Source: Loxodes magnus (taxonomy: Eukaryota > Ciliophora > Karyorelictea > Loxodida > Loxodidae). From it: DNA of 64,000 nucleotides. Each line of letters starts with the position of its first letter. Position 1 is the stretch's first letter. The DNA is taken from assembly GCA_946699065.1 (NCBI GenBank), contig CAMPDV010000139.1, forward strand, positions 124,001-188,000, read 5' to 3'. Under the pieces are notes generated by a model. The model was not told the origin of the DNA, did not search any database, and saw nothing but the letters and a program-made list of their open reading frames with translations. A program made the position numbers and the translations under genes. Shown one piece after another: positions 1 to 64,000 of this stretch.

Positions 1-920
1 TTGCTTTTATTAAATTTTCAAGAGTAGAAATATCAGTGCTATATCTCAGTAATCTAGTTGTAGAAATATCTTAGAGATTAAATAATCTTCTTCAGTATCC
101 TTTTTGAGCTTCTAAGCATAGCTAAGCCATAGATTCATATTTACCGAGTATTTTTAAGTTTGCTAGAATATTGATATTTTCTATTTTATTTAGCTTACTT
201 GATTTTTAACTAAAGCGAAAGAAAAGGATTAATTAAGTCAAACAGCAGCTTACTTAATCATAAAGTGGTAATAAGGTAACTAGATATTAATAACAAGTAG
301 TCTAAAGTTTCTTTTATATCTTTAATAGTTGAGAGGTATTAAATTTCTTGTCCTTTTGCTCATTCATATCTTAGAGAATCATTTATCTATATTTAGATTT
401 AGCATACATTGTCAATGCCAGTAAGCGGGGATAAAGAAACATAGACACATAGTTATAGAACTAATTACTCTAACTTTTAACCTTTAAATTTATTAATATC
501 CTTACATTCTTACTCTCGTATATCTAGCATGCTTGAATTTTAACTTTCGACTTTATATAAACAACAAAAATAAGCTTAGCAACTATTCTATAGACTCAGA
601 TATGAATACTAGCATTTATAATTTATATTTTATAATAAGATAAAATAATTTCTCAATATAAGGTCTATTTATCACTAGATTTATAACCTTCTATAACTTA
701 GTTTAACTATATAGTAATAAGTATTTTTCTTAATTATAGAGTCTTTAGTTAATTCTAAAATAAATAAATTAAAATTTTTTAATAAATATAATAAAAATAA
801 TAGTTAATGGATTTTTAGTAGTTTTAAATTAGTTGGCTGTAAAAGTAAAGGTTAGAGGTAATATTAATAAAAGAATATTGTCATTAAAATTATGCTAAAT
901 GTAATAACCTTACTCATTTT
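1..920. other. A/T-rich stretch, no gene recognised
   Basis: Nothing here matches a motif or another copy in the window. The sequence is A/T-rich with short poly-A and poly-T runs. Open frames exist on both strands only because TAA and TAG are sense codons in this genome. Confidence 0.5.
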
Positions 921-929
921 CTAGGAATT

Positions 930-1440
930 ACAACCTATTTCCCAGTAGTCAATTTTTATCAATGATCGAAGTACTTTACTGTCCACTCAACTCTTCTCTA
1001 CTATTCTAACTTCCGATTAAGTGTCAATTTCTTCTTATATATAATCTCTATGAATAGCAGATCATCTTTCTAAAATATTATGATATTTTCTTTTCTAATA
1101 AGTATCTCTCTTCTCAATAAGTTCTACTTATTATAGAAAAATTAGGACTGTTGATAAAGGTCCTTTTCGCTTCTGCAAGTAATAGCATTTCTTCGCAATT
1201 AACTAAGATAATTTCTTGAGTATATAGGGGCAATATCATATTCTGGATGCATTTTATCTCTTATTTCCTTTTATATGTTGATCGCTATTTTGAGTTTTAA
1301 TTGCATTTTTGCCAATTTTCTTCTACTTTTTCTTGCCTACTTTCCAGTTCTATCAGCTTTTACTGTTAAATTTTAGATTGCTTCTCTTGTCTTGTGATAT
1401 GCTTAAAATGAGTTTAGGTCTCTCTTTTAGACAGATATAT
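930..1440 (-). pseudogene. possible coiled-coil ORF fragment
   Basis: The plus strand is pyrimidine-rich here, and the minus strand reads as a Glu/Lys/Gln-rich heptad-like stretch (IELESRQEKVEEN) followed by a less charged part (EEMLLLAEAKRTF, then EERYLLEKK). The composition is more protein-like than the flanks. No start, stop or domain was found. It may be a remnant of the coiled-coil ORFs common in this window; identity is not established. Confidence 0.3.
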
Positions 1441-1639
1441 TGATTCTTTTTCTACAGCTATATTTAGTCTCTCCATTAACTTATATGACTAAATATCTTT
1501 TTTACCTAAACACCTTCTTTATTAATTCAAATGTCAAATTTGGCTTTTTACATATTATTAGGATTATAGATATTTAAATGCTTGAGCTTTGATAAACTAA
1601 TTATAGGCTCTAATAAAACAGAAGTTAACAACATATTAG

Positions 1640-2460
1640 AAAAGCTAGGACCAGGGAAAGGGTTCTTAAAAAGTTGTCCGTCAAATAGAGAGTCCCATCA
1701 CTGAAGAGAACCTAGGAAATAGGTTAAAAATAATATTCACTCGGGAGGCTCGAATTTCATCACAGAACAGTAAATAAGATATGATTACTGATAAAAATAG
1801 AACTGGACTCCATGAAAAGACCAAAAACTGAAGAAGTACAATAAAAGACTATTTGAAAAACTTGAAATAGTAGAGGAGAAAGAATTGAGAGCAATGACTT
1901 AAGAAAGAAATCTTAAGTCATCTGAAATATTTCACAAGAACAGAACAAGCAATCATAGAACTAGTAATAGAAGTAGAAAGAACTGAAAAAATGATAGAAA
2001 AAATAGAATAAATCAACAAAAATTGAAGCGTTAATGGAAATAAAGGAATAGTAAAATAAACCAATGATAATCGAAGGTTAAAAAACTGCAGGTTTAAATC
2101 TAAACGAGAAATGAAAAGATATTACTACCGTAACTCTAAAACGCGACTATAGAAAAGAAGCTAGAAATGTTATAGCTTTAAATAAGAGTTCTGAAACTAC
2201 TAGAAGAAGCTGGAGAACAAAAAGAAAAGAAATCATCAAATAAAAATAAAAAGAGAAATTTATAATACAACAAATTCGGGAAAATATACTAGAAAATAGG
2301 TACCAAGCACTATCTAGGCAAAAGATGCCTCAAGGATAAAATACACATCAAGGAGAAGAGTTTGAGAGATTTTCAAACTTTAGAATTTAGCCTCTAGGGC
2401 AATTCAGAGGTTGCAGATAAGAGGTTAAAAACCTCCAATAAAGTAAAGTTTAAAATTTTT
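1640..2460 (+). pseudogene. decayed coiled-coil retroelement ORF (zinc knuckle lost)
   Basis: A purine-rich plus-strand region with a coiled-coil section (TEQAIIELVIEVERTEKMIEK) around 1940-2010, then a basic segment containing RRSWRTKRKE near 2200. That segment resembles the RRCWKRKK that ends the zinc knuckle at 20.9 kb. At the expected C-x2-C-x4-H-x4-C spacing the four ligands are read as Val, Leu, Glu and Ser, so the finger is gone. The reading frame also changes at least once. I read it as an old copy of the coiled-coil/CCHC family; the match is short, hence the modest confidence. Confidence 0.35.
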
Positions 2461-2469
2461 TACTTATAT

Positions 2470-3760
2470 TAGTAAGATAAACCAATTTTATATTTGTTTT
2501 CATTAAATTTCTACTTTATGATTTTTATATCGTAATTTGAATTTTAAAGTTAAAAATTCAAATATTAAAGAAAAAAAATTCTATAATTTAAAAATTATTG
2601 AAAGAAAAATAAAATAAAATAAAATGAAGATAAAATATTTTAAATCATAAAATATTAAAATTTTTTTTCTATCAGATTTTATTTAACAAGAACATTTTTT
2701 GAAAAATTAATTGGCTTATTCATAAAAAAATACAAAAAATTAAAAGTATTAAATAATAGTAGAAAAATAATTTTACAATGAAGTAAATTTATATTTATTT
2801 CTTCTTTTAATTTTTCATTATATAAATTATGAAAAACAAGGTTATTCAGTTTTGTTATTTTTTTCAATAAGGTACTAAAATCAAAGCTTTTAGATATGAA
2901 AATGTAAAATAAGAATATTAAATTATTTGGAAGTTATTCTAAAGTGGTTTAATTAGATTTATGCAAATATGCAAGTATTAATGAAGTAAATAAGAGTAAT
3001 AAACCTTAAGAAAACACTAGATTATTTGCAAAAACAAAATAGAATTATATGAAAGAAATAACTGGCGGATCTATTTTCATTATTAAGCATTTCTATTCTC
3101 TTAAACTATAGTTATTAAATACTTAAACATTAGCAGCTAGAATTTAATATTCTTACTTTTCCATCAATTAATAGGAACATTATACTTTATTAAGTACTTG
3201 TTAAGGAAAATCTAATTGTAAGGATTTATTACTCTTTTATTATGTATTATTATTAAAAGAGACATAAAATATTATAAAAATTAGTATATATCTATCACAG
3301 TAAGTATTTTATATATTCAATATAAGCATTTTAAATAAAGTCTAGCAAAGCTTATAAATGAGACATAGAGAATTAATAGTAAAATTAATTTCTGTCTAAA
3401 CAATAAAAGGATATTAACTTCTATTTTTCGATTTATTGTCTGATAAATAAAAGAAACTTTGATAATCTGCTTTTAATATAAAAACTAAAAGCAATACTTA
3501 AATAGACTTTATAACTAATTTAGGAATTAAAATAAAAATATAAATTTAGTATTCTTAGTAAAAGAATATTAGTATAATATACAGTTACTTAATATAAAAT
3601 ATAGTTACTGTTACTTAAATTAAATAAATTAAAAGTAGAATATGCTTATTTAAATTATTATAATATAAATAAGAAAAATTAGAAAATAAGAAAGTTTAAA
3701 CTATAATTATTATAAAAGTTTACCAAATGTAATCCCTAACTTTAGTATTCAATGAAGAAA
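2470..3760. other. A/T-rich stretch, no gene recognised
   Basis: Very A/T-rich, with long poly-A and poly-T runs. I see no motif, no similarity to other parts of the window and no protein-like composition on either strand. Confidence 0.5.
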
Positions 3761-3769
3761 AAGTTTTAA

Positions 3770-5175: not shown

Positions 5176-5325
5176 AAATTTTAGAAATTTTAGAAATTTT
5201 AGAAATTTTAGAAATTTTAGAAATTTTAGAAATTTTAGAAATTTTAGAAATTTTAGAAATTTTAGAAATTTTAGAAATTTTAGAAATTTTAGAAATTTTA
5301 GAAATTTTAGAAATTTTAGAAATTA
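5176..5325. repeat. 10-bp tandem repeat (TTTTAGAAAT)n
   Basis: About fifteen nearly perfect head-to-tail copies of a 10-bp unit, TTTTAGAAAT. There is almost no divergence between units, unlike the surrounding A/T-rich DNA, so the array is recent or being homogenised. A 10-bp period is close to one DNA helical turn, which would place the A/T tracts in phase; that is inference. Confidence 0.95.
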
Positions 5326-6636: not shown

Positions 6637-6831
6637 AAAATATAATGTTTATTTTAATTTAATATATACTTTTATTAATTTTTAAATAAATTTACTATAT
6701 TGCAGATTAATTTATTTTCTACTTAAGTACTTTAGTTATATATACAAATATTTTATCTTTAATTTTCTTCTTTTCAGTTTGAATTATATTATATAATTAT
6801 AGTCTGACTTTATAATTTTTAATTAACCCAT

Positions 6832-7944: not shown

Positions 7945-7959
7945 TTATAAATTATTTTC

Positions 7960-11159: not shown

Positions 11160-12900
11160 TAAAAATGGAAACCAGACTTATAATTCAAGCTCTTAAACTA
11201 CATGGAACCATTTTCACTGATCAAAGAAACACGATATAATAATACACTTAAAGGAAAAAGGATACCTATATATCTATGATTGGACGGACTTGACTAAAAG
11301 GAGGAGCATAAAATAAGAAAGGAATGAAGTGGTTAAAAAAGTCACAACCTAAGCTATAATTTAATAAAAGAATGAACAACTAATTTCAGCCAACGTCCCT
11401 AAAGACTAAATGGTAAGAGTCTATTAAAATGCCTATGATAATCTATCAGATATGGTGGTCACAATTTATTTTAACCACTATCTGGAAAATACTGATTTAG
11501 TAGAGAAAAAGGCCATATACTAAGATGATACAAGTTTTTAGAAATCAAATATAGAGCGAATACGGACAAGCAGTGGCCAAATTCATCGTCAAATAAAACG
11601 AAATAGTATATTTAATATTTAACAATGAAGAAAGATACTAGCAATTCGCTTAATTAAGGAAATAAACATTCAAAGGCGTTAGAATTCCTATCTAAGCAAG
11701 AAACTATTTAAAATACTTTGGCATTCGTAACCACCCAGTCTACTTCATAATAAACGAATATTCAAACAAAAGGAAGTAATGAGACAATATGGAAAATCTA
11801 GAGGAGAGTATAGCATGCATACCCAAACACTACAATGCTAGCAGGTGGCAATGTAATGTACTTAGATTTAAAGGATATAGACGAAGCAAAGAGGATACCA
11901 AAAGTAATAGATCTGAACGGAAACAAAATGAGAATACAGCACCCAGTAAATTTTATCTGCTGTCTATGAAAATTGAAAGGGCACACAGATCAACAATGCA
12001 GAAGGGTGGAAGCAGCAAAAAGGAAAAAACTACATACAAGAAAATTAGAGATGCTTGAAGGAGAAGCTAAATCAACAATAAACAAACCAGAATTAAAAGC
12101 AAATCAAGCAAATAAGAGGATAATTGAAGAAGAAGAGTAAATGATTATAGAGGAAGTAAGGAAAGAAGAGAAGGAAATAAAACGAGGAGAATAGGAAAAT
12201 AATTAAAACAACTAAACAATTAAATAATAAAAAGTCTTTTATGCTAAATGAATAAATAAGAATTATTTTTCATCAAAATGGAATTGGACATATGTAAGGC
12301 AGAGAGATAGAGAAATGTTCATAGAACTAAATAAAATAGAAAACAAACAATTATATAATAAGATATAATATATAACAAATCAGAGATAAGGAATAGGATA
12401 AATTATGATAAAAACGCTAAACTCTAACAGAAGAAATTAGAAACAAACAAAATAGCATAATGTAGTATGTAAGGAAAAGCGTAAATTAAGAAAAATAACA
12501 AAAAGGAATAGAGCAATGCTCAAGAAGAAAGGGAATAAAATGCAAGATAAAAGTGAGAAGTAAGTAGCAAACTAAAACAAGCTTCAATTAGAATTTACTA
12601 TTCTAAGAAACCAAAAAACAAAAATGAGCAATTACCCAAAAAAATTTATAGAAAAAGGCAAAAGAAGAAGAATAGAATAGATAAGAAGAAAGGAAAGATA
12701 GATAATAAGTGGAAAAATATAAAAAAGGGGAAATAATTAATAATGAAGAGAATATGGAAGCAGAGAATGATAGATAAGATGAAAGAAAGATAGAGTAGGA
12801 AGATGAATAAAAAGAAGAAAGTGATGAAGAGGAAGTAAAGGAGATGGGTGAAAAAGAAGAATAAGAAAAATCATAAAAATAGAGACAGCAAATTTTAGGG
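11160..12900 (+). pseudogene. LINE ORF1: nucleic-acid-binding protein with CCHC motif
   Basis: The first part reads in one frame (YLIFNNEERYQQFAQLRKQ, then RIPIQARNYLKYFGIRNHP), which looks like an RNA-binding fold. It then shifts to another frame at about 11.85 kb leading into a zinc knuckle at 11958-11999: C-C-L-x-K-L-K-G-H-T-D-Q-Q-C. Ligand spacing is exact except that the second Cys codon is TGA (11967-11969), most easily a decayed TGT or TGC. A long Glu/Lys-rich tail follows to 12.9 kb. ORF1 proteins of LINEs coat the element RNA. Confidence 0.65.
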
Positions 12901-13560
12901 GAGTTAGAAGTGCAAAAGAGGCACTAGCTAAATTCATGACTCAAAAAAGTATCCACATAATGGCAATATAAGAGATTTAGATAGAAACTAAAAAGATATG
13001 TGTAATATAGCAGGATATAAAAACTTAATAAATGTCGGGTAAAAAAAAGGGAAATGAGTAGCATTCTATATTAGAAATGACATATGTAAGGAGATCAGAG
13101 AAATATAGAATGAAGTCAACCAAATGAAGCTTTTAGGAGGAGCGAGAGTGATAATTGAAATAAGGAGTAATAAATATGTATGCACCTGTAGCAAATGATA
13201 ACTAATAATATGAGCCATTCTATAACTTAGTGAACGAATTTAAGCTATAAGCAACAGAAAAAGGACTTAATGTAATTGTCATTGGAGATTGAAATGCGCA
13301 TATAGATTAATGACTACCAAAGAAAACAAACTCAGCTGGTAAGAGAATGCTGGAACAGAATAATTTAATATGCTTTAATCCAATTTAAATAGGTACTTTC
13401 GTTTACTAAAACAATGAATATAAAATAGATTACTTTTTAATTGAAGAGATAATGAGAGAAAAGGTAATAAAAAGTGATTTTTATTACTCATACATAATAG
13501 GGGACCATAGACCTGGTATTATATAGATAAAGATTGGTAAAGAAGTTAGAAAACCATAAA
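12890..13560 (+). pseudogene. LINE ORF2, APE-type endonuclease domain
   Basis: The domain opens with an Asn-containing motif (KIETANFRGVRSAKEALAKF) and the Glu motif MAIQEIQIETK. It continues with INMYAPVAND, then VIVIGDWNAHID, where the Trp codon is TGA at 13290-13292. IDYFLIEE and IIGDHRPGI correspond to the conserved DY and SDH ends of APE endonucleases. This enzyme nicks target DNA so that the 3' end primes reverse transcription. At least one frameshift separates the first motif from the rest. Confidence 0.8.
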
Positions 13561-14159
13561 AGATAGCAAAAATAAATTACCTACTATTAAAGAAAAAGAG
13601 ATCTAAGAAAAATTTGAAAGATTTATACAAGAAAATATATAAGAAGAAGAAATTGAAAACCTAAACGGTACGTAGACTTAAAAAGGATGAAAGAAGAAGA
13701 TATAAGAAGGAACTCAAATGGTATGTGGAACAGTTAAAACATAAAACTTTAAGATATATAAATACTCAGAAACAACAAAATAGTGCAATAAAATTTTCAG
13801 AAAATGCATCAAACAATTAAAATAAAGGATAAAGAGCAGTAAAGAAATAAATGAAAATCAACAAAACGAGAAATATAGAGAATAATAAAGAGAAAGACAA
13901 GAATATATTTAATCAAGAACAAAGATAAAAAAGGCTAACTTAACCTATTTAAGACAATGTAAATAGAGGAAACCTGACAGAAATGTGGAAGAAACTAAAA
14001 AACCTACTTAATAGAAAAAATAATTAGTGAGTATCCTTGTAAAAAGAAGATGTTAAGACTTTCAGGAACGAATGATAGCAGTTATATGAAGATGGCGATA
14101 ATACGATACCAACTAAATTCTTAAGCAAGAGAAAAATAGTGGTAAACGAATATGAAATT

Positions 14160-16480
14160 TGAGAAAACTTTAATTAATTGGCGAAATGAAAAGCAGCAGG
14201 ACCTATGAAATTTAAGTAGGAACAACTTTAGCTGGTGGGAAAATTTAATAAAAGTAACTTGCAAAATGATAGCTAAGATGATTTAAGAGGGAATAATACA
14301 TTAGGAGATGAAACAACAATACATAATGTTAATATACAAAAAAGGAGGATAGATGAACCCGATGAACTATAGACCAATCTCTTTATTGAATCATGCTTTA
14401 AAAATTTTAGACGCATGAATTTTTTTGCAATTGTAAAAATATCTTCATAATGATGAAAGCGAATACTAATATGGTTTCAAAAAAGGAAAATCATGCTCAC
14501 TATAAATCTTTAATCTAATAATAGTATAGAAATGGTCAATGCGGAACAAAAAAGATTTATTTGTAATACTAGTTGATATTAAGAAAGCTTATGACTCAGC
14601 GCAAAGAAAGGATATATAGTAAATCCTAAACGATCTAAAAGTACCGGAATAGATAATTAAACTGCTAGCAAACTTCTACTGTGAAGAAGAAATTAAACTG
14701 AAAATCAACGATTAAATAATAAAATAATTCCCGATAAATAAACGACTAAAACAGGGAAGCATAACGGATCCAAGACTATTTAACTTGATAATAGCAAGAT
14801 TTCTCCATAGTTTGGAAGATTAAAAACTAGGAATTACGATAGACTATAAAGACGAAGAGGGATGAACATAAGAAATATATACAGAATGTTTTGCATATAT
14901 TGATTACCTAGTCTTAATAAGTGAATGGAAATAATTAGAGGAGATAATCGAAAATTTAACCTAATGTGCAGAAAAGTACAAATTGAAAATTTAAGATAAA
15001 ACAGAATGAATGATATGAAAATCAGCAGAAAACAGAAAATATTAGAAATAATATCGAGATGGGAAATTTAAGGATTGAAAGAGTAATGACCTTTTAGTAC
15101 CTAGGTCATATAATAGAAGAGAAAATCAATTTTGAAAAAAACATGGAGAATAAACTATAAGCAGCATAAAAAATACAAACATGAATATTGGGAAAAATAA
15201 CAATGAATAAGGGATTAACACCATATAATGCAGGAATAATGATAAAAACCTTCGTAAGCTCAGTTTTCAGTTATGGGACAAAAATGATACCATATTGCGA
15301 ATAATTTGTAGGAAAATAAGTGATGGAGCAACTAGAAATAATATAGAGAAGATCTTTACGAACAATCATAGATGCCCCTTTTTAAGTGCAAAATGAGATT
15401 TTAGAACACGAATTACAGTTTATGAAATTTAAACATTACCTATGACAAAAAATGTTGAGATTAAGAGGCAAATTAATAGGAAACTAAGGAAAAACAGTAG
15501 ACGGATTATTGTTCGACCTAAGAAATGAAGAGAATTTTATATTTGAATAATATTGCACAGCAATAAAATTAGAATTAAAAATTGAAGACAATGAAATATT
15601 TATAGATGATGGTAATAACAATTAAAAAGGAAAGAAAAATATTATAAAGTACAATATGAGAATATAGAGTATATGTAGAAGATAGAGAAAGAATGGAGTA
15701 AATGATAACAACATTACAATATAGAAAACGTGATTTGATGAATATGTAGTAGGACCACCCAACTACCTGAGATATAATAAAAATAGAAAAGAAGAAATAT
15801 GTTACCTATTTAGAATTAGAACGAGATGTAATGGGAGCTAGGATTGCTTAAAAGAAAGACACCTTGTTATGAAAAGTAAATGCATTTCTATAGCAATCCA
15901 AGAGAAAATGAATGGCATATCTCAGAAAATTTTTCAGAATATTAAGAAAGAAGATAATAATGTATCTGAAATCTTAGAGCAATAGGAGTATAAAGATAAG
16001 GAATAGAACTATTTGATATAATATGAGGTACGGCCAAATTCGAGAAATTCATTAGAAATTAAGAAGAATAAAAAAGAGCTAAATCTGACTTGATAATAAA
16101 AGATTATATAAAAGATATATTAGAAAAAAGGAAAAGAGGATAAATAGAAAAGAAAATTGTTTGAAAAAAAGAAATAACAAAAGACTATAGAGCAGGAAAA
16201 GGATAATTTTTATGAGTGTATAAAAGCTCGATCAAGAAAAAAAAATTTAATGAAAATTAGTAAGATATGAAAGAAAAAATAAATTAAGCTTGAAATAAAG
16301 ATCTAATAAAGTGTAGATAGATAGAAGACAGAAGAATAAGAGATAATATAGAGGAAAATGAGGAAGATATGTAACTAATAAGAGAAGAATTTCTATTACC
16401 TGAAGACTTACTTGAAGAAACGGACATATATTGAGACATGGAAAGAGCAGCAGCCAAACGAGGTGTTATGCGCTCTATAT
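14160..16480 (+). pseudogene. LINE ORF2, reverse transcriptase and C-terminal region
   Basis: Motifs in order: NPMNYRPISLLNHALKI, YGFKKGKSCS, FVILVDIKKAYDSAQRKD (catalytic Asp of motif A), LKQGSITDPRLFNLI (motif B), and CFAYIDYLVLIS. The last is motif C, where the usual Y-A-D-D reads Y-I-D-Y, losing one catalytic Asp. The thumb-like region follows after a one-base shift near 15.05 kb (MTFQYLGHIIEE). The C-terminus carries GPPNYLRYNKNRKEE and several Cys/His. TGA reads as Trp in KTEWMIWKSAEN and EEGWTQEIY. The copy is inactive. Confidence 0.85.
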
Positions 16481-16562
16481 CAAATTTATTTATTTATTTG
16501 TTTATTTATTTATAATGATAAAATTAATAATTTTACTATATATATTTTTTTTAAAAACCGCC

Positions 16563-17029
16563 ATAGTTGTTCGAAGGTGAACAACAAGGGACATCTTCAT
16601 CAGAGGTTGGGGAAATTAAGTACCCATAATCGACTTTATGTCTTCCTCTGCTTTGGCTTGGCCTCTAGACATCTGATAATTTGACCTTCGGCACTGGCTT
16701 ATTTCAGTTTGTAATTCTGGAAATAAAAGGAAATTATTTTTGCGAGCTTCATCTGAGGTGGGGAATTTAAGTACCCATATTTGACACATGTCGTCCTCTA
16801 CCTTCGTGATGCAATGAGACGCAACCCTGCCATATCCTTGAGTTCCCAACAAGTATTAAAGATTACGAGTATTCTGAAATTATATCAGTATTGAACAAGG
16901 TTTATCAGTATCTGATAATTTTATCAGTAAAAAGCATTCTTGCCAGTATGAAAATTTTTAAAAAGCTGCGCACCAACGAGAGTGCTACGCGCTCTATAAT
17001 CAAATTTATTTATTTATTTATTTATTTAT
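16563..17029 (+). mobile_element. SINE-like element sharing the LINE 3' tail
   Basis: About 465 bp. The left end begins ATAGTTGTTCGAAGGTGAAC. The right end is the GC-rich stem-loop at 16964-16995 plus (ATTT)n, as at the end of the LINE just upstream. Inside, two related modules follow each other, each with CTTCATC, GAGGT, TTAAGTACCCATA and TCCTCT in the same order. An inverted copy lies at 40500-40905 and a diverged one at 28.62-28.93 kb. It has no obvious coding capacity; the small frame on the minus strand is not conserved. It is probably moved by LINE enzymes. Confidence 0.75.
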
Positions 17030-17074
17030 GTAATTAGCAAAGCAAATGTAAAATATTTCTTTAATTATTATACT

Positions 17075-18459
17075 TCAAAAATTTAACTAAGATTTAATAC
17101 TAAAAAAGGTTATAATAGATTATATTATTGACTTTATAATAATTTTCTTAATTAATTATAAATGTAATAAATATTATATAAAAAATTTAAATTCAATTAA
17201 AATATTAAAAAATTATATTTTTTTACCTTTATTCCAATTTTGAACTTCTTTTCTTCCATCAGCATAGTAGTAAGTTCCTTTACCTTACTTATGACCTTCT
17301 TAAAATTGACTTTCATATCGAGATCCATCGTTATACTTTTAAACTCCATATCCATGTATCTTCCCCTTGAAATATTAACCCTCATATATTCCTCCATCAT
17401 CATAGTGGTAAGTTCCTTTTCCTTACATAAGATCTTCTACAAATTGGCCTTCATATCTTGATCCATCCCTATTCTTATAAACTCCATATCCATGCATCTT
17501 TCCATTTCTCTTTTCTCCAACATATCCTATCTCATTTTCTTGTACCTTCTCGATCTGTTTTGTTCCTACTTCCTTTTACTATTTTACTTCAAATTTCTTC
17601 ACATTACTTTTTATTATTTCCTACTTTTGTATATCTATTAAATCCTACTTTCTCGTTTCTTACTTTATCTTTTCTAATTTCTTCATTGATGTTTATAAAC
17701 TCATTCTTTGATCTACCTCTTATTTTCAGCTCTCCCTTACTATCTCCTCTATCACACAATTCTCAGGTATTTCCTCTCTTTCACCTCTCTTTATCCCTTC
17801 ACGCAACTCTCCTTCCTCTACTTCCTCAAAAGGTATTTTTCTTGTCACTATCTCCCATAAAACAACTCCATAAGCATATATATCAGAATATATACTATAT
17901 CTTGGCTTTATTCCAAATAACTCAGGAGCCATCCATCTTATTATTCCAACCTAATTTTTAGTGCTCAAGGATTTAGATACCAATTTTACTTTTGCTAATC
18001 CAAAATCGCATATTTTAGCATTTTTACTTTGATTCAAAAGTATATTCGCACTTTTTAGATCCCTATGGATTATGTTGTTAGTGTGTAAGTATAATAATCC
18101 TGCTGCTATTTCCTGAGCTATTTCTAATTTCAGGTATAAACTAATATCCTATTTACTGTGAAGAAATTACATTAGCGAACATTTCATTAACTCCACTATA
18201 ATTCTTGTTGGCTTCAAACTATATCCATAGAATTAAATAATGTTAGGATGCTTTAAATTTTGCATTATTTAAATTTCTTGTAGAATTCACATTCAGTATC
18301 TTCATTTAACATCCTTTGAAAGAAATCTTTAATAGCTACATTTGTAAATTTGTTCCATTTTCCTTTGTATACAGTACCATATGCTCCATGTCCAATTTCC
18401 TTTTCAATTTATAATGCTGATGATTCTATTTTAATATTAAGACTTATACTATTTTCCAT
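17075..18459 (-). CDS. protein kinase fused to MORN repeats
   Basis: ATG at 18459. A tyrosine-kinase-like Ser/Thr kinase domain comes first: Gly-rich loop [15 protein letters not shown] lysine, then LKHPNIIQFYGY, catalytic loop [13 protein letters not shown] in [15 protein letters not shown] activation-segment end, [12 protein letters not shown], and IVRESWKQEVDQR, whose Trp (TGA, 17726-17728) is the conserved subdomain XI Trp. The same frame continues into four MORN repeats at 17225-17500 ([23 protein letters not shown]). MORN repeats often bind membrane lipids or scaffold proteins. One base is missing near 18278, between FYK and EIQIM, otherwise the gene is intact. The first in-frame TGA after the repeats is 17075-17077; the true end may be earlier. 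It may be a recent pseudogene, a frameshifting gene or an assembly error. Confidence 0.85.
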
Positions 18460-20559: not shown

Positions 20560-21167
20560 AATATAAAGAACTTAGCATTAATAGGAAAAATAGAGATTTG
20601 GAAAAACAGATCGAAGAACTAGCTTAAAAACAGCAAGAGCATTTAGAAGATGAGGAAACACATGCTCCTAGAAACTTAAACCAGACTGCAATGAATATCA
20701 GAATTGACGAATTCGATAGGCAGCTGGGACAATTATACGAATCGAATGAAAATATTCATATCAAATTGGAAAAATTAGAGACAAGTTTAAAATAATAGGC
20801 TATGCAATCTATCCCAGTGGAGATCGAATAAGAGAATAATAAGCCAATTGAACAAACTAAAGAGAAATATTTTAGGAAAAAATGTTACATCTGCAGGAGA
20901 ATAGACCACCTATGGAGACGATGCTGGAAGAGAAAGAAGGTTTAATAGAAAATATGGAATGACCTAACCTAATTTTACCCAACCAGGAATGGAGAAATTT
21001 ATAAGAAGAAAGCAAGCTATATGAAGAGACAACCATTCCGAAAACTTGACAGTGAAGGGAGGAGAAGACCACCTAGAGATCAAGTTCCTATTGGTTGGAT
21101 AGGGAAGTAGGAAGCTCTTAAGTAGACGATCCTTCTTTAGCATTTTAATTTAATTTAATATAAAGAA
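20560..21167 (+). mobile_element. 5'-truncated coiled-coil/CCHC retroelement with 11-bp TSD
   Basis: A perfect direct repeat, AATATAAAGAA, at 20560-20570 and 21157-21167 encloses 586 bp ending in a TTTAATTTAAT-type tail. The tail matches that of the element at 41.0-41.8 kb. The insert begins inside the coiled-coil coding part with no 5' leader, as expected for 5' truncation during target-primed reverse transcription. Confidence 0.8.
20585..21156 (+). CDS. coiled-coil/CCHC zinc-knuckle protein, 5'-truncated
   Basis: The frame is continuous. It starts in a coiled coil (RDLEKQIEELAQKQQEHLED, RIDEFDRQLGQLYESNEN), passes the linker TKEKYFRKK and enters the zinc knuckle at 20883-20924: C-Y-I-C-R-R-I-D-H-L-W-R-R-C. 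The Trp after HL is TGG here and TGA in the copies at 37.9 and 41.59 kb. A basic tail follows (KIWNDLTQFY, GRRRPPRDQV). Gln is written with all four codons CAA, CAG, TAA and TAG. There is no start codon, so the copy is not expressed from its own ATG. Confidence 0.75.
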
Positions 21168-30623: not shown

Positions 30624-31580
30624 ATGCATTCGTTTATTGAAGAAATAAAAGGAAATGACAAACTTAATAAATAAGAAATTGTTTAAAGTAGACCATTGAG
30701 AGTTTTAAAAGACGGGACTTTCTGTGTATAAAATGAATTGATAAAATATGAGATCTAATTCATAAACTGTAACATTACCTATGATAATGTTTAATATTAT
30801 TTAGAATAAAGCTACTCCTAAATTAAAATCTCACGTAAGATGGATGATTGTGTCAGCTAGCAAAAAGTAACAATTTCATTTTTTAATTTTACTCAAAAAA
30901 GGTACTGGAAATTTCATAACTGAGTGATAAAATCATTATCCAAGAAAGCTTTTGTGAAAAAAAAATTAGTAAAAATAAAGAGGTAAAATAAACTTCATAA
31001 TTAAGTAAAAGCCTTAGAACAAGCACAAAATATGTGCACATACTTCAATTATTGTAATGAATGATTGGAAAACTGTATTTAGGGACCGCCGAATTATCTT
31101 AGATATAATAAACATAGAAAATAGGAAAATTACTATTTATTTATATTACTTACTGAATGTTGTAATATAGTGTAAACTCTAAAAGAAAGTCACCTAATTG
31201 AAAATGCAATTTGTAGTCTAAGCTAGTAAGGGAAAGAAGACTTAAATCACATAATAAATTTTTGTGAACAATATAAAGAAGTCAGAAACTTATGCAAATT
31301 TTAACTTTAATAAATCTACATCAGATATAGTTAAAGGGTTAGCATTCTTATGAAATCTGAACCAAGTCGATATCGTGTAAGGAAGTTATAAATTTAAGTA
31401 ATTATCACGGAGTCTATAGGAAATCTCAAGAAAGCATATTGACCAAATAGTAAAAGATTACATATAAAGGAATTTTAGAGATAAAAAGAAGAGTTTATTT
31501 AAGCAAAACTTTACCACAACAAAAAACAATAGGAAAAGACTAAAGAATAAGTACCAATGAACACAAATGATTATTCTGGG
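30624..31580 (+). pseudogene. LINE ORF2 C-terminal fragment
   Basis: One frame runs from ATG 30624 for about 950 bp. Its second half, GPPNYLRYNKHRKQENYYLF at 31.08 kb, matches GPPNYLRYNKNRKEEICYLF of the long LINE at 15.75 kb. A Cys/His pattern follows (TECCNIVQTLKESHLIENAIC). The first half (EEIKGNDKLNKQEIVQSRPL, KDGTFCVQNELIKYE) has no match in the LINE. TGA reads as Trp in KFHNWVIKSL. It is either a 5'-truncated element or a different LINE lineage. Confidence 0.5.
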
Positions 31581-37469: not shown

Positions 37470-38448
37470 AATTACTATATCTAATTAATTAATTTTAACT
37501 AAAAGGGTTTTGGGTCATCTTTAATTAGAGAAAATGTTTCCTCAAGATAAAGACAATAAAAGTTTTTATATTCACTTTCAACTGTACATATCTTCATCTG
37601 AGTCATTTTCAAAATGGAATAATTCTTCTTTCTCTTCAAGGAGCTCTTAGAATTGTTCTTCCATCTTCTTGTAATTTATCTCCAGCTTCTCTAAATAAAT
37701 TCGAAGTTTGTCATTGTTTTTTTGAAGCTATTTTATTATTATTAATTATTAGTTTCTGCTTAAGTAATGTCAAGCTTGATTTAATTAATCCTTTTTTCTT
37801 TCTATAGACTCCTCCATAGCAGTTGTATAACCTTCTCGATGCTCCAAATTCATTTCTGTGCTGCTGAAGCACTCTTTTTCACTTACGACATTATTTTCAT
37901 AAATGTCCAATCCTTTGGCAGTAATTACAACGTTTTATTAAGGGTTTGAAATAAAAATGTTATTGTATTTAAGCATTTTTTTCTAATTCCATCTTATCTG
38001 CTTGAGGTTAGTTTTTTTTTTTATTTTTAATGAACCTTTTCTTTAATTTTTTATGGATTCGTTGCTAGATTTTTTTTCTAATTTGACAGATTGGAAGTTA
38101 AGGCTTCAATTTAAGACTAAATTTAACTTATATAGTCTTGATCTTCCTTTTATTTATCTTAGAAAAGAAGTCGAAGATTCTAATTTTCTTCCTTCAGGAT
38201 CTATATTTCTTCATTTATTTTCTCAATTAATGAATAAAACTATACGATGTCCTGTTCATGGATTTTCTCAAGTTTCTTAATTTTGCTTGGAAATTCATTT
38301 TTTCCAAATTCTTAACATCTATAGTATTATCTTTTTTAAATTCTTGGTTCTTGTTATTTAATTGATTCATAGGATTGATCTATTAGGTTAAGCTTTAAAG
38401 TTTAGATTACCGGTTTTTTCCATTTTTTATTGACAATTACTATATCTA
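37470..38448 (-). mobile_element. coiled-coil/CCHC retroelement with 14-bp TSD
   Basis: A perfect 14-bp direct repeat, AATTACTATATCTA, at 37470-37483 and 38435-38448 encloses 951 bp. Duplication copy 2 (about 51.31-51.36 kb) lacks the element, an independent empty site. The element lies on the minus strand and ends at low coordinates with CTTTTAGTT and an A/T tail. It holds a coil at 38030-38300 (FYSLIEKINEEIQILKEENQ), a zinc knuckle at 37888-37929 (C-N-Y-C-Q-R-I-G-H-L-W-K-Q-C, Trp = TGA at 37897-37899) and a second coil (LEKLEINYKKMEEQFQELLE). Frames shift between parts. Confidence 0.85.
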
Positions 38449-39263: not shown

Positions 39264-40499
39264 TTAAAGAAGTTTCTCTTCTTAAAGATAATGATTAGTT
39301 ACTATTGATAGAAATATAATAAATTAACTTTTTAAATAATTAAAAATTTGCTTACTAATTTATTCTTAAGTAATTGATTATTACAATATAATAATTACAA
39401 CTTAATTACCTGTACCTTTGTATATACGTATATGATTATAGCTTAGTTAATTATATAAAGGCCATTTTAATGAATAAATCTTAAATTCTATTAAAATTAT
39501 TATTTTCCAGATTATTTCTAAATTTATAAAAGAGTAATAAAATCTCAAATTTTATAAGTGAATTATCTTAAAACCATTTAAGAAGAATATTTTACAAGTA
39601 ATTTACATAATCTTTAATAAAATAAATTTACATAATTGGCATGCACATGTTAGTTTGATTCTATTTTAACTGCAGTAAATTAATTATAAACTTTCAAGTT
39701 TTCTTTTTCGTTTTCTATAATATTTATTTTATAAATTAACTTACATAACTTTATTTTCCTTAATTTTTAAAATAAAGGAAAATACTTATTTCTTTTTCAT
39801 ATTTCATTAAAAATTAATTAATTCAATTTTCCTTAATAAACTTTATTCTTTTTACAATTTTTTAAAATTCCCTATTATTTCAAGTTTTAGTTAATTGATA
39901 TAAATATAGCTCATTATTAGGCTCCTTATGAATATGAAATTAATTCTCACGAATAGAAATATTTTATTTTTTTATTAATCAATGCTAATTATTAAGAACT
40001 TATTGTTTTTATTATTGAAAGATTTTAGTAAGAATATAAATAAGTTAATTTTTAAATATCTACAAGACATAATTTATACTGATTAATTCACATTATAATT
40101 CAATTAAGTAATGAATACTTTTCATTTACATTATTTTAATAATTAATTAAAATTTTTATTTCTTTTAATAAATTTTCTAAATATCATACTTAATAAAAAT
40201 TATACATTTTTTTAATATACATAGAAGATATCTCTTCTAATCTATTTTTATAAAACCATAAATCAAATATTTTGCTTTCACTAAAAATAAATTATTTTCT
40301 TCTTAATTGTCTTTTAAAATCCACTTCCATTCTTTTTTCAAACAGTAACTATTATTGTTGGTTGTAAAGGTCAATTTTTGAAACTATTAACTCCTTTTAA
40401 CTTTATATTTTAGCTTTAAAAAAGTAAAAATTATTAAATATCACAGTTAAATAAGGAAAGTAATTTCTGATAGTAAATAAGTAATTTAGATATAAATAA

Positions 40500-40905
40500 A
40501 TTTTATTATAGAGCGCGTAGCACTCTCGTTGGTGCGCAGCTCTTTAAAAAATATTTCATACTGACAAGAATGTTCAATACTGATATAATTTCAGAATACT
40601 CATAATCTTTAATACTTGTTGGAAATTCAAGGACATGGCAGGGTTGTGTCTCATTGCATCACCAAAGCAGAGGACGACTTGTGTCAATTATGGGCACTTA
40701 AATTCCCCACCTCTGATGAAGCTCGCAAAAATAATTTCCTTTTATTTCCAGAATTAAAAACTCAAATAAGCCAGTATCGAAGGATGAATTAGCAGATATC
40801 TCGAGGAAAAGCCAAAGCAGAGGAAGATATAAAGTCGATTATGGATACTTAGCTTGCCTAACCTCTGATGAAGATGTCCCTTGTTGTTCACCTTCGAGCA
40901 ACTAT
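40500..40905 (-). mobile_element. SINE-like element, inverted copy
   Basis: Reverse-complement match of 16563-17029 over its full length. The 3' stem-loop is at 40511-40542 (GAGCGCGTAGCAC pairing with GTGCGCAGCTC around a short loop), followed at low coordinates by an A/T tail. The other end, GTTCACCTTCGAGCAACTAT, equals the 5' end of the other copy with one change. Both internal modules are present. Confidence 0.75.
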
Positions 40906-40989
40906 ATTAAAAAATGAATAATAAAGTTATTATATAATAAAAAATTAATTTATCATTAAAAACTTAGCATTTATAGATTTTTTCAGATT

Positions 40990-41820
40990 ATAGTTCACAT
41001 TGCTAAAAAAAAGAGAAAAATGGAGAGTTGGAACAAAGGTTTTCTTATCGAAAAGATTACTCGTAATACTACTGATCAATCTTTCTAAAATTAACAAAAA
41101 CCAACTAAGATTTAAAAGAAAAAATATTGCTAAATATCAGAAGAAAAATAACTACCTGTAAAAATTCCTAAATAGAGGCATACATTTAATCAATAAATGA
41201 ATTTAGAAAAGGAATAACTCGTGGAGATTATTTTCGACTACACTGATAAAGTCGAGAATCTCGAGCATTATGTTATCAGTTAATAACAAGATTTATAAGA
41301 TCATGTGGACGATGAGAAGCCACACACTGAATTTGTAACAAAATAGGATATTGATAACAGATATCAAGAAATAGAATGCGATATTGTTAGACTAGATGAA
41401 AAAATGGGAATAGACTTTTAAAAATATGAAAATGCCTTTTAGCAAGTTAAAGAAAATAAGCAAAGGTTAGAGAAATTAGACTAATAGCCATAAAAAAATC
41501 AAGATTCAATGATAATAGAAGAACAACCCATAATTTAAGAAAAATACTTTAAATAAAAGTGCTACATATGTGGCAGTCAATATCATATTTGAAGAAGATG
41601 CTAGGGAAATAAGGAAATTAGAAAAAAGATTTGAAATGAATTGACCATGCTTTATCCTTCCTCAGATGGTTAATTATGACGTAAGAAGATAACTCCAAGA
41701 CCGTTCGGAAAGCTCGGAAGTGTACTTGGGTGGAGACACCGGGGAGTCCGAGACCCTGTAAAAGGGAACACTCCATTAACCTTAAAATTTTTAATTTAAT
41801 TTAATAGTTCACATTGCTAA
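40990..41820 (+). mobile_element. intact coiled-coil/CCHC retroelement with 17-bp TSD
   Basis: A perfect 17-bp direct repeat, ATAGTTCACATTGCTAA, at 40990-41006 and 41804-41820 flanks 797 bp. The 5' end is an A-rich leader just before the ATG; the 3' end is TTTTTAATTTAATTTA. The ORF is unbroken. The perfect TSD and intact frame make this the youngest insertion in the window. No polymerase is encoded, so it must use one in trans. Confidence 0.9.
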
Positions 41821-56052: not shown

Positions 56053-57402
56053 TCAATGCATTTTTGTTTCAATTTATATTTCTTCGGTCATCTTCTCTAC
56101 TATTTCTAGCTTCTCTACATCTTTAATTATTCCTATAGCAACCGTTTGCCACATATCTCTTACTATGAATCTTCCTAGAGGAGGATATTATTATACTGAT
56201 TCAACACATATTGGTTTACTTGGAACTAATTTTACAATAGCAATATCTCCTTTTTTCAAAAATTAAGGCTCTTCTTCTATGACTGCACCTGTACGTCTAT
56301 CTATAGTTTATCTAAGTTCTTAAAATGTGCAAGCTACATTATTATTATGGCATTCTATAACAGGACAATAACCCTATCTAATTTAACCGGGATGATTTAA
56401 AATTATCACTTAAGCTAAGAATGATATTGCTCTTTTTGGTGGATCATCTTAAGTATTTCCACAAACAAAGCCTCTCCTTAATTCTTTGACTTTTAAATCT
56501 TTTACGTTAAATCTCACATTATCTCCAGGATAGGTTTCTTCGAGCATTTCATGATTTATATCAATGGAAGTCACTTCAGTTGTCAAACCTACGGGAGCAA
56601 AAGTTACCATCATACCAGTTTTCATAACTCCAGTTTCTACTCTTCCTAATGCAACTGTACCAATACCTCTAATCTTAAATACATCCTAAAGAAGAAGACG
56701 AAGAGGCTTATCAATGAATCTTTTTGGCGGAATAATAGAATCTAAACATTAAAGAAGAGTCGGTCCTTTATATCAATCCATATTTTTTGAAGGCTCTGTT
56801 AAGTTATCTCCTTTCCAACCTGAAATAGGGATAAATGGAATTTTATCTGGATTATATCCTATTTTCCTTAATTGTTGCTTCACTTCTATCTATATTTCCT
56901 AAAACCTATTCATATCATAATTTACTGTTATATCATCCATTTTATTTACTCCTACAATAATTTATTTTACTCCTAAAGTATAAGCAAGAAGTGCATGTAA
57001 TCTTGTTTAACCTTATTGGCAAATACCTGCTTCGAATTCTCCAATACTAGCTGCAACTATTAATAGAGCTATATCAGCTTGATTTATTCCTGCCATTATA
57101 TTTTTAATAAAGTCACGATATCCTGAGGAATCAATAATCGTATAATCATATTTGGGAGTTTCTATTTTTCATTTAGTTATATTAACTGCCATACCTCGTT
57201 AACGATCCGGTTATAGTCTTTAACATATTAAAAGAAACTTTAAAGAATCTCTGTTAAATTATTCAGCTTCTTTTCCAATTCGCTCAATCATACGTTAATC
57301 AATACCTCCACATTTACAAATCAAATGTCCTGTCGTAGTAGACTTTCCCGAATCTACATGACCAATTACAATTAAATTGATATATGGTTTTACTTTAGGC
57401 AT
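56053..57402 (-). CDS. translation elongation factor 1-alpha-like GTPase
   Basis: ATG 57402 to TGA 56053-56055, 449 residues, no intron; family length is about 450. It would deliver aminoacyl-tRNA to the ribosome. G1 [15 protein letters not shown] and G4 NKMD are intact, as are [43 protein letters not shown] and [11 protein letters not shown]2 is altered (DRQRGMAVNI), and G3 reads D-S-S-G-Y instead of D-A-P-G-H, so the catalytic His is Tyr. Two TGAs occupy invariant Trp sites (TKWKIETPKY, codon 78; DWYKGP, codon 210); two other Trp are TGG. A divergent paralogue rather than the main housekeeping copy is likely, but the frame is fully intact. Confidence 0.95.
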
Positions 57403-57404
57403 CT

Positions 57405-57805: not shown

Positions 57806-57819
57806 TATTAAATTAATTA

Positions 57820-59526: not shown

Positions 59527-61490
59527 ATGAAATCTAGCACTGACAAAGATTTCATAATTTTAAGTAAAAATTTGGAATGAGGTGAAAATAAAGCTAGTGG
59601 AACATTTAGAACAGTATATAAAGGAAACTACTAAAAAGAGTCTAAGTGACTATAAAGCAGTTGTCAGTGTAAAATAACTCAAAAAATATGAGCAGCTAGT
59701 TTCTGTAAGAGTTTTCTATGTAAAGAAATTAAATCATCCGAATGTTCTGTAGTTATATGGATATTGTCCATAACAATTGAGTTTGGTAATGGACTTAATG
59801 TAGCGTTCTTTGTATGATATGCTACATAGTAATGAGGAGATAAAATGGGAATTGAGATATAAGATAGCTTAGAGTATCGCACTTGGATTATAGTATATTC
59901 ATAAATAAAATTTATTGCATAGAGATCTAAAAAGTAGTAATATCTCTATTGAGCAGCTAAAATAATGTGAAAAAATAACTAATTTTGGATTAGCGAAGAC
60001 TAAATTTGAGACTAGATTGAAACAAACTCAAAAGTAGATATATAAAAATCTCGTTAGAAATAAGAAGAAGAGGAAATTATAAATAAAACAGTAGAATTGG
60101 AATTAAATGGTTCTTCAGTTTAATATTAGACAATTGATTTTAGTAATATAAATAAGGAATAATTAGAGATATTTTTAGAATAGTTTAAAAAGTAGTCGTT
60201 AAAAGTAGAAACCTTAGTGTAAAATGTTTTAAATAAAGGTAGTTTAACTGAAAAAGTTGATATATTGTTGTAGATGAATGAATAAAAGATACTATAGTAG
60301 AATAGAAATTTTAAAAAATTGTGGATTTATCTAAAAATTTTAAAGAGATAAATTAAGCGTCATCCAATGCAATAACTTGCCTAAACTACATGAATTATGA
60401 ATTTAGGAAGTTAATTTATTTGGAATAATAATAGTAGGAGCAGATTTATCAGATACAATTTTTACCGAATGCAATCTATTTCATTCATATTTAAAAAATT
60501 ACAATATCCGAAACGCCAAATTTATAAACTATAATCTCTTTAGCGCAAATCTAACCAATATTTTAACCGAATAGGTTCATTTAATATAAGGTCATTCTAA
60601 TTCAATATTTGCGTTGGCAATATCAAGTGCAATAAATGAATAGTATCAGGAAGTGAAGATGAAACAATTAAGGTATGAAATTTTCAAACTAATGAGTTAA
60701 AAATGAAATTGACTGATCATAAATTTCCTGTATAATAAGTGGTAATCTCTTGTGACAAAAAGGGAATAGTATCAGGAAGTTTCCAGGAAATCAAAATATG
60801 GGATTCAAAAATTTACAAGTTAAAGAGTAAATTAACTGGTCATACATCTGGTGTATGTCATTAGCAATTTAAAGTGAAAATAAATGATTAGTATCTGGAA
60901 GTGGCGATAAAACATTTAGAAATGAAACTTCCAAACAGATGAGTTAAAGAGTACATTGATTGGCCATACATCTTTAATAAATACTGTAGCAATATCAAGT
61001 AACAATAAATGGATAGTATCTTGAAGTTATGATGAGACGATAAAGATATGTGATATTTAAAACAATGAGTTAAAAATATCAATAAGCGGAAATAAAAGTA
61101 CCATATATTCTGTAGTAATCTCAAGTGATAATAGTGGATGGTATCAGGGAGTGATGCCAATCTGATAAAAATATAGGATTTCCATACTTAAGAGTTAAAA
61201 AATACATTTACTGGTCATACAGATTCTGTATATTCAGTAGTAATATCAAGTTATGATTAATGACTAGTTCAGGAAGCTTGGATAAAAAAATAAAGATATG
61301 GCTAATTAAAACTGGTTAATGCTTGGCAACTTTGTAAGGTCATAAGGGAGGAGTAGGAAGTGTTCAGATAGCATAAAATAATAAGTGGATAGTATCAGGA
61401 GGTGGATATGGTAAAACAAGAAGATGGAATGTGCAGAGGTTATTACAATCTTATAATTATAGCTAATAGTAACAAATAAGTAATGATTTA
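59527..61490 (+). pseudogene. protein kinase with pentapeptide and WD40 repeats, degenerate
   Basis: ATG 59527. The kinase part shows GENKASGTFRTVYKGNY, then after a shift VTIKQ, KKLNHPNVLQLYGY, LVMDLMQRSLYDML, catalytic loop LLHRDLKSSNIS, and ITNFGLAK, where the DFG Asp is Asn. The activation segment and C-lobe are missing. Pentapeptide-like repeats follow (VGADLSDTIFTECNLFHSYL, NAKFINYNLFSANLTN), then five or six WD40-like units (IQGHSNSIFALAISS, SKLTGHTSG, STLIGHTSLINTVAISSNN, TGHTDSVYSVVISS). Many shifts interrupt it. It resembles the 18-kb kinase in its LxHPNxxQxYGY and HRDLKSxNI text. Loss of DFG Asp and the C-lobe make catalysis impossible. Confidence 0.8.
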
Positions 61491-61499
61491 AATTATAAT

Positions 61500-62480
61500 T
61501 AAGTAGGTATATTGGAATTTAATTTATTCCTACTATAACTTAAAGTTTGAGAATTGTAATACAAACAAAATATTGATGAATGAAAGCGATAAATAGAGAT
61601 TCTTAAGTAAATGTGAAAGCTGAGAATAAAGTATAAACTATTAAAAATAATTTAATTTAGCTAATAGCTCTATATTTATATAAATAATTATAAATGTAAA
61701 TAAATCAATTAAAGTGTAAAGCAAGTGTTTAGTTATGAAGTTATAAGTATTTAAAGATAAATTAGTAATTTTCAATTCACATAAGAAATTACAAAGTGTA
61801 AAGATAATTTTGGATAGAGTTGATGATTAGAAGAGTAGCTGGAAGGAAAATGTTGTCAAAAGATTTGAAAATAAAAGTTGGTTGAAAAATTAAAAGTAAA
61901 GATATACATCTGTTTATTAAATAAAAAGAAATTAGAGTAAATAAACTTGCTTAAAAGGGATATTTTTTTAATTATTTAGAAATATTTAAAATATTAAATA
62001 AGTTAGATGATTTGAATTTATGGATATATGTGATAAAACAGATTTTATTGATCCAAGAAAAAAGTTATTTGCAAATAAAGTAAAACAAATAATTTCTGCG
62101 TATACCTTAGATAAAACAGCTAAATAAGAAACTTCATCTGGTCTCTTTCAAAACCTTTAAAAGAAATATTATAAGCACTTATATTAATATATCAACATTT
62201 ATTTGATAATATGCTCATTTATACATAAAAATTAAGGTATCTTAATTACCTGAAAAATATGAGATCCTGTTTAAATAAAGTATTGATAATCCAACTTTAC
62301 AACTGCATTTACTTAATGTGAAAAATTAAAAATAATCTTCAAGCTAATTGAAAAAAAGCAAAAAGATAATAAGAAAGAAAGTAATAAGAAATAGAAGATT
62401 AAAAGAGATAAATCTTTAATTTAAAAAAAACTCTAAAAGAACTTGAAAACATTATATAATCAAAGTATTTGAACAAACGA
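61500..62480 (+). pseudogene. weak coding signal downstream of the WD40 region
   Basis: Plus-strand readings such as DRVDDQKSSWKENVVKRFEN, DFIDPRKKLFANKVKQIIS and DKTAKQETSSGLFQNLQKKY are protein-like but in different frames. They could be a C-terminal extension of the kinase/WD40 gene or a separate decayed gene. Confidence 0.3.
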
Positions 62481-63033
62481 TTTAGGATTAAAAATGTTTT
62501 GGTCCAAAGCTTTTTATTAATTTTATTTTAGAAACTGTAATTTGAGTCTTTTAACTATATTCGTAATTTTTAGATTGAATTTTTGTAAAAATTAAAATTG
62601 ACTGAATTATTTTCAGCTTTAATTATTATTTCACAGCAACTAGATTGTAAGTAGTTGAATTGAAAGGTTTTAGCAAGAATACTATAATAAAAAATATAAC
62701 GCTTTTTTCAAAATTATTAAGTTTCTTGCTTACAATCGGCTAATTTAGCTTTCCATAAAGGTTAAAACAAACTTGAGAGTTCCAAATAATTTTTTGCGTC
62801 ATTGAGATTCTCTGAAGACATGTAACTGACAAGGAAGCACTTATTCGAATTAAAAATAGATTTGTAATTCTTTGTCTTTGAGATTAAATCCATTTTTTAT
62901 TCTCCCTGGAATCTTCTTATTTTCTTATAAAATGTGTGTCTTGAATTTTAATTACACCTAGACTATGAAAATATCTTGTCATGTAAAAAATGATAACTAA
63001 CTCTTAATAGAAATTTTTTATACTATATAAAAT

Positions 63034-64000
63034 ATGGATGATAGCCATGATTGGGAGAACTTTTAGGTAACCTGGATCAGTGTATATTGCATTGCGAATT
63101 ATCTATCTCCATATATCTCCACAGATAAGGGTGGATTAGTTCGGAAGTTGCATGCCTAACTTTTTTAGGTTATTATTCTGGTAATAATTGTTAAAATACT
63201 TAAATAAAAAGCCTAAATAGAGACATTATGTTAAAATTTAAATTATACAGACTTTGTGTCATTAAACTTAGTAAGAAGTAGTCAAATAATCTAATTATCA
63301 AAACATGTAATTTTATTTAATTAATTTGAAGGAAAAATTAGGTCTAAAGCCTAGCGATAATGTTAGAGTTTAATAGAGATTATTATATAAATAGTAACAT
63401 ATCAAATACATTTTAAGCATTAAAGTATATAGAGAAGTATAGCTTGGATAGGTACTTAAATGTAGAGATTTAATTAATATCATTTACTAAAAGATAAAGC
63501 TAAAATAAAAAGTGGCAGATATTTCTGGTTTATTTAAAACTTAAGTTTCTTAAGTCATTTAATAGAGAATCATTCAAATAATCTAACTTAAAAATTAAAA
63601 CCTTTTTGATATTTTAGAAGATGGTTCTTATGAACTGAGATATTTATGACTAAAATTCGAAAAGGAAAAAATCTTCTTAGCTTTCTATTAAGCTATAATT
63701 CAAACTGATAAAGTTTCTAATTAATTATAAACTTAGGATATGTTTAAATAAAGATTTACACTCTCAGTAAAAAGGAGAGTAACAAATGTAAAATTAACTT
63801 ACTCAAACTGCTATAAGACCAATTATAAGATAAGCAAGATACCTACTTAAAAATAAAGAGCATACATTAGGAAATTGGATTGAGTTAAAATAATCGAAAT
63901 TAGAAAAGAAGGATGAAAAGACTCTTAAAAAGTCTATCGAAAATTAAATTTTCAAAAATTGCTTTTTAAGATATTTTTTAATTAAAAAAGGTATCTTTTC
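63034..64000 (+). CDS. possible partial gene running off the window
   Basis: ATG 63034 opens MDDSHDWENFQVTWISVYCI followed by NYLSPYISTDKGGLVRKL, a protein-like start in slightly GC-richer DNA. Beyond about 63180 the reading is less convincing. No motif was recognised and the window ends before any clear stop. Confidence 0.3.

Follow-up and report, generated by a model that had tools for sequence, protein, structure and literature searches.

The 64,000-nucleotide stretch analysed here as a whole (the window; contig CAMPDV010000139.1, C139:124001-188000) almost certainly belongs to the macronuclear assembly of the ciliate Loxodes magnus, or of a very close karyorelict, with NCBI translation table 27 applying, and it carries an eEF1A-like gene in which TGA occupies two internal tryptophan (Trp) columns as well as the expected C-terminal end. 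Around this gene lie two protein kinase genes, three copies of a family with CCHC knuckles and the remnant of a retrotransposon (Table 1). The window contains 22.8% G+C (77% A+T) and, under the standard code, a single open frame of more than 150 codons. An earlier note on this DNA, made from the letters and their open reading frames, had proposed that UAA and UAG encode glutamine (Gln) and UGA encodes Trp, and this agrees with the eEF1A and actin families of the genome. The karyorelict source that the note suggested is likewise in agreement with these families and is almost certainly Loxodes, and the undescribed relative that it offered as an alternative is unneeded. The genome-level tests used the assembly of the window itself (705,730,643 bases in 7843 contigs); the L. 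magnus macronuclear assembly is given as 706 Mbp in PMC11441545.

Table 1. Features of the window and the TGA codons that bear on the code (window positions)
Feature	Positions	Strand	Details
Non-LTR (long terminal repeat) retrotransposon remnant; frame differs between endonuclease and reverse transcriptase	12852..15063	+	PF14529, PF00078, own profile
TKL-type kinase and MORN gene, approximate limits	17219..18453	-	coding measure; Pfam PF07714, PF00069, PF02493
TGA at kinase subdomain XI Trp	17726..17728	-	Trp in 24/26 homologues
CCHC knuckle family, TGG at Trp positions	20567..21133	+	
CCHC knuckle family, third copy	37782..38064	-	TGA 37897-37899 against Trp; 37879-37881 against Arg
CCHC knuckle family	41002..41736	+	TGA 41590 and 41632 against Trp; 41677 against Tyr
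eEF1A-like gene, diverged paralogue	56053..57402	-	449 codons and stop, single open frame under table 27
TGA as stop, expected eEF1A C-terminus	56053..56055	-	ETKMH-TGA; same-contig paralogues L016/L017 end ETKMQ-TGA
TGA at eEF1A Trp column 210	56773..56775	-	Trp in 102/102 homologues; TGG in canonical L007
TGA at eEF1A Trp column 78	57169..57171	-	Trp in 102/102 homologues; TGG in canonical L007
Kinase-pentapeptide-WD40 gene	59654..61440	+	Pfam matches spread over three frames; read as pseudogene

The eEF1A-like gene and its family

Reading of the minus strand from 57402 to 56053 with table 28 gives an uninterrupted protein of 449 residues, which is clearly related to human eEF1A2 (phmmer E-value 7e-180) and contains the Pfam domains PF00009, PF22594, PF03143 and PF03144. 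The gene has just two internal TGA codons, and both stand on columns where all 102 homologues have Trp, as the earlier note had seen; for the window gene alone, two of two would be expected with p=0.022 under random mutation. TGG occurs twice as well, once on a conserved Trp and once on an Arg column. At the ten aligned Gln positions of human eEF1A2, the window gene has TAA or TAG six times, CAA twice and a codon for another residue twice, and the free use of TAA and TAG as Gln is thereby borne out. The description of the gene as intact holds for its open frame, but relative to the canonical copies of the genome it is a diverged paralogue: differences from the canonical copy L007 number 101, 62 and 222 at codon positions 1, 2 and 3, with synonymous divergence (dS) near saturation. 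The ratio of nonsynonymous to synonymous divergence (dN/dS) is 0.28-0.29 against the nearest fetched relatives, L016 and L017 of the same contig, and 0.28-0.41 against L009 and L014-L018; judged from these comparisons, the copy looks to be under constraint.

The earlier note had also proposed comparing in-frame TGA with conserved Trp columns in family alignments. For the eEF1A-like gene of the window each TGA was entered as X, so that the alignment stays unbiased by TGA; the profiles were built from 102 of 120 listed rows for eEF1A, 26 of 120 for the kinases and 26 of 27 for the retrotransposon. The eEF1A search gave 195 candidates, of which 71 were scored; the loci fetched comprised all 15 listed with TGA and five without, a choice that inflates the ratio of TGA to TGG and leaves the placement of TGA unaffected. 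The main count excludes five loci taken to be other GTPases or incomplete (L019, L021, L022, L023 and L025) and covers 15 diverged eEF1A-like genes (L009-L018, L020, L024 and L026-L028). In these 15 paralogues and the window copy, 31 of 38 TGA codons fall on the four Trp columns of the canonical copy, and 32 of 42 do so when all 20 fetched loci and the window are counted, whereas under random mutation, with substitution rates estimated from the family, about 15-16% of newly arising TGA codons are expected there. When TGA codons are grouped by eye into 14 events, the probability of at least ten on Trp columns is 3e-6. At these columns TGA is found 31 times, compared with three times for TAA and TAG together, and TGA accounts for 31 of the 64 Trp columns of the diverged paralogues in this sample, chosen largely for TGA. 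The canonical copy L007 writes every one of its four Trp as TGG.

The eEF1A/EF-Tu family is strongly expanded in the assembly, with its 71 scored matches and tandem arrays on contigs C256, C232, C61 and C373; the spacing is about 1.64 kb in the array on C256, and C61 has six copies at intervals of 2.8 kb.

Actin copies and the other genes of the window

Actin served as a second family. Among 96 matches, 17 TGA-bearing copies and three without TGA were fetched, TGA-bearing copies on C81, C708 and C31 being left out; about thirty of the 96 share one score, and copies of equal or almost equal score are numerous on C266, C711, C437, C707 and C524. The four Trp of the canonical actin L029 are all TGG, and its frame includes TAG seven times and TAA twice. 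Of the TGA-bearing copies, ten can be aligned in one frame across 340 residues or more, and eight of their 15 TGA codons are on Trp, compared with none of nine in five copies broken over several frames (Fisher test, p=0.009 as counted and 0.028 with near-copies collapsed by eye). This comparison omits L054, which lies in two frames and has one of three TGA on Trp (with it, the broken copies would have 1/12), and L056, which is in one frame at 22.8% identity and also has one of three; over all 20 actin loci the count is 10/30. The difference between intact and broken copies is that expected if UGA is Trp when translated and falls at random in dead copies, the numbers being small.

The two kinase genes of the window supply further TGA codons at Trp positions. 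The earlier note had assigned the TGA of the kinase-MORN gene to the conserved Trp of subdomain XI, and this assignment stands; the gene itself, however, is not in one frame, its N-lobe lying in a different frame from the remainder with a switch near 18275, and it is probably broken. Three TGA codons at 18289-18304 were excluded, since the profile match there extends across the switch, and those columns are better covered in the other frame. Introns of L. magnus are reported with a mean length of 19.3 bp and a mode of 17 bp (PMC11441545); GT-AG stretches of 14, 16, 34 and 40 nt occur near the switch, and an intron was rejected as the explanation of the switch, the sole stretch of usual size (16 nt) lying about 55 bases beyond it. 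In the WD40 part of the kinase-pentapeptide-WD40 gene, where the frames were traced by eye, five of six TGA codons are at Trp positions (60637, 60676, 60885, 60923 and 61261; the sixth, 61022, is at Gly). Those at 60676 and 60923 correspond to a family-wide Trp, and those at 60637, 60885 and 61261 to a Trp written TGG in other repeats of the protein, though not present in the PDB homologues shown; the TGA codons of the linker and pentapeptide parts (60275 and 60398) are outside the count. Intron-size candidates are present in this gene as well, but its repeats are disturbed at the frame switches and it is therefore read as probably decayed. The gene lies close to the eEF1A-like gene, and its kinase part is 44% identical to the kinase of the kinase-MORN gene.

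In the CCHC family, the TGA codons at 41590 and 41632 align to Trp at 20913 and 20955, and that at 37897-37899 (minus strand) to Trp at 20913, so all three pairings reported in the earlier note are found again; it had omitted 41677, facing Tyr, and 37881, facing Arg, and over the knuckle part the count is three of five TGA on Trp. The note had also cited two paralogue pairs that share a TGA, at 19.9 and 53.47 kb and at 27.06 and 36.84 kb. Both pairs match with similar scores in several frames and on both strands and, from sequence comparison, look like non-coding repeats; hence the shared TGA is no evidence on translation, and this part of the earlier argument falls away.

The retrotransposon remnant is a long interspersed nuclear element (LINE), and its combination of PF00078 and PF14529 fits the retrotransposon content of L. 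magnus, for which about 2,700 copies of RVT_1 (PF00078) and about 1,200 of PF14529 are reported, the retrotransposon repeats being mostly fragmentary (PMC11441545). A possible second C-terminal LINE fragment is seen in 15311-15883 and 30651-31214 (27% identity). A repeat of about 500 bp in inverse orientation (16508-17069 and 40450-40963), 61-72% alike in several frames, is non-coding and perhaps a short mobile element, and the dispersed pairs 38564-39034/51444-51878 and 10205-10612/25067-25468 also match in several frames. A perfect 9-bp tandem repeat, AAATTTTAG, occupies 5176-5324 in 16.6 copies.

ARAGORN found no transfer RNA (tRNA) in the 64-kb window, and Rfam gave zero matches at the gathering score across it. 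Pfam scans of both strands at 19.5-24.5, 27.5-32.5 and 37.4-42.4 kb gave nothing above the curated cut-off; outside the Pfam scans lie 1-11.7, 19.0-19.5, 24.5-27.5, 32.5-37.4, 42.4-55.9 and 63.4-64 kb. At 11.7-16 kb the scans covered only the plus strand, at 16.7-19 kb only the minus strand and at 55.9-58.3 kb a single frame.

UGA at gene ends and the choice between codes

The same genes that have TGA on internal Trp columns also end in it. The canonical eEF1A copies L005 and L007 terminate in KKK-TGA and the canonical actin L029 in RKCF-TGA, and the 15 gene ends shown (14 eEF1A-like and one actin) are all TGA, with TAA or TAG sense codons close upstream in several; since the ends were taken as the first downstream TGA, this test is not independent. 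L014 and L015 have TGA for three internal Trp and TGG for the Trp seven codons before the stop, and in L020 one internal Trp is TGA and the Trp six codons before the stop is TGG; in L014, L015, L020 and actin, with ends picked in this way, Trp near the end is TGG. None of the 15 ends has TGA among its last 20 codons, which, given that choice of ends, is weak evidence for the published depletion of coding UGA shortly ahead of the stop. Three features come together, namely TAA and TAG on Gln columns, TGA on Trp columns within open frames and TGA where these genes naturally end. UGA is also a terminator in these genes, and the code is the ambiguous table 27; the earlier proposal of UGA as Trp holds for internal sites but not as a plain reassignment, since UGA ends the same genes. 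This code, with UAA and UAG as Gln and UGA as Trp or stop, is already described for Loxodes and is not new here: for L. magnus, table 27 is given with UGA as the sole stop and also Trp (PMC11441545).

Several observations weigh against UGA as Trp. In the eEF1A set, seven of the 38 TGA codons lie off the Trp columns, the three TAA found at Trp columns are one site in L026-L028, and the homologous end lacks TGA in four of 19 eEF1A-like genes (L012 and L026-L028). Over the two whole best alignments of the CCHC family, four of seven TGA codons are off Trp (20466 at Thr, 41821 and 41677 at Tyr, 37881 at Arg), and in the LINE, whose homologues are distant, only one of 12 is on a column where Trp is commonest and 11 are off, one more TGA, located in an insert, being omitted from the count. 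In the single-frame actin copies seven of 15 are off Trp; five of these seven are one common site, Phe339, in copies where Trp342 is changed to Phe, and TGA at Phe339 fits an aromatic residue. In the actin paralogues L043-L047, this combination gives the appearance of an aromatic swap. Finally, the canonical copies L005, L007 and L008 of eEF1A and L029 of actin have no internal TGA, and the evidence for UGA as Trp here therefore comes from diverged copies. Within the window, the evidence leans towards UGA as Trp yet is mixed, as expected where some of the gene copies are dead, and the decayed copies are weaker evidence for the code.

A rival reading is the ordinary ciliate code, with UAA and UAG as Gln and UGA only as stop: in-frame TGA would then be nonsense codons in decaying or germline-limited copies, TGG to TGA being the easiest change. 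Several window genes are indeed broken, the canonical eEF1A and actin copies examined are free of internal TGA, and TGA lies off Trp in the LINE as well as in the actin copies that are broken. However, such decay would not concentrate TGA on the Trp columns of the eEF1A family (31/38, or about 10/14 events by eye, against the 15-16% of random mutation), nor would it yield 31 TGA against three TAA and TAG, though G-to-A changes at the second and third bases of TGG should be similarly frequent. The TGA-bearing copies moreover have frames that stay open for about 440 codons, the dN/dS of the window copy against L009 and L014-L018 being 0.28-0.41, and most of them, L012 excepted, keep a TGA near the natural end; together with the table 27 published for L. 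magnus, this makes the ordinary code very improbable. An origin in the Tetrahymena germline, suggested by the AT content and by gene decay, was rejected, the chromosome breakage motif of Tetrahymena being absent from both strands of the window; the size of the assembly decided the question.

In Blepharisma, UGA encodes Trp and UAA and UAG are stops; the Trp meaning of UGA is common to both codes, but UAA and UAG are Gln here. With the karyorelict table 27, the genes analysed agree in UAA and UAG at Gln, UGA at Trp and UGA at the ends, and no tested feature differs; UGA is also absent within the last 20 codons of the ends shown, which is partly by construction of the ends. Table 28, in which UAA, UAG and UGA are all able to stop, gives identical internal readings, and in Condylostoma magnum the three codons have the same internal meanings (PMC4967479). 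In that species termination at UAA and UAG is possible too. In the genome analysed here, TAG directly precedes TGA at seven eEF1A-like ends (L009, L014-L018 and L024), and L012 and L026-L028 lack TGA at the homologous end; on the other hand, all 15 ends shown here are TGA, with TAA and TAG upstream as sense in several, although these ends were picked by TGA, and UGA is given as the only stop of L. magnus (PMC11441545), so that a Condylostoma-type code is very improbable. Another organism with the same reassignment would be the syndinean Amoebophrya ex Karlodinium, for which UAA, UAG and UGA have all been published as sense codons (PMC6394959, PMC12005148); its genome is reported as 127 Mb with 65.2% AT, as against 706 Mb for the present assembly and 77% AT in the window, and a source of this kind is extremely improbable.

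A proposed position-dependent meaning of UGA in Loxodes genes

Under table 27, an internal UGA would be decoded by a tRNA-Trp, either with a UCA anticodon or with a CCA anticodon and an anticodon stem of 4 bp, and a UGA near the 3' end of the message, followed by a short 3' untranslated region, would be taken as a stop by eRF1; its position within the messenger RNA would decide its meaning. This scheme draws partly on the literature, where position-dependent decoding is described with UGA near the poly-A tail as stop and further upstream as Trp (PMC11441545, PMC4967479), and a tRNA-Trp(CCA) with a 4-bp stem appears to be present in Loxodes according to a preprint cited in PMC12005148.

The use of UGA for Trp could, as a tentative suggestion that is somewhat less probable than its opposite, depend on the status of the gene, canonical genes using TGG only and the diverged but constrained paralogues TGA too; the copies L005, L007, L008 and L029, all of whose Trp are TGG, belong to families with many near-identical copies. 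The avoidance of UGA at Trp by the canonical eEF1A and actin copies examined, as against its use in diverged paralogues, may be new, no dedicated literature search having been made. If it were true proteome-wide, an ambiguous UGA would carry a measurable cost in premature termination that strongly expressed genes avoid, the share of UGA at Trp sites could report expression and relaxed constraint, and paralogue families such as the expanded eEF1A set would offer a natural experiment in the spread of an ambiguous codon.

The window provides an independent recovery, from sequence only, of the known Loxodes code, together with individual genes where UGA has to serve both as Trp and as stop. Standard annotation would label these genes broken; frame and column tests, rather than the presence of UGA alone, are needed to separate the truly broken copies. 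Where a code lacks a dedicated stop, what a codon means can hinge on its place in the message.

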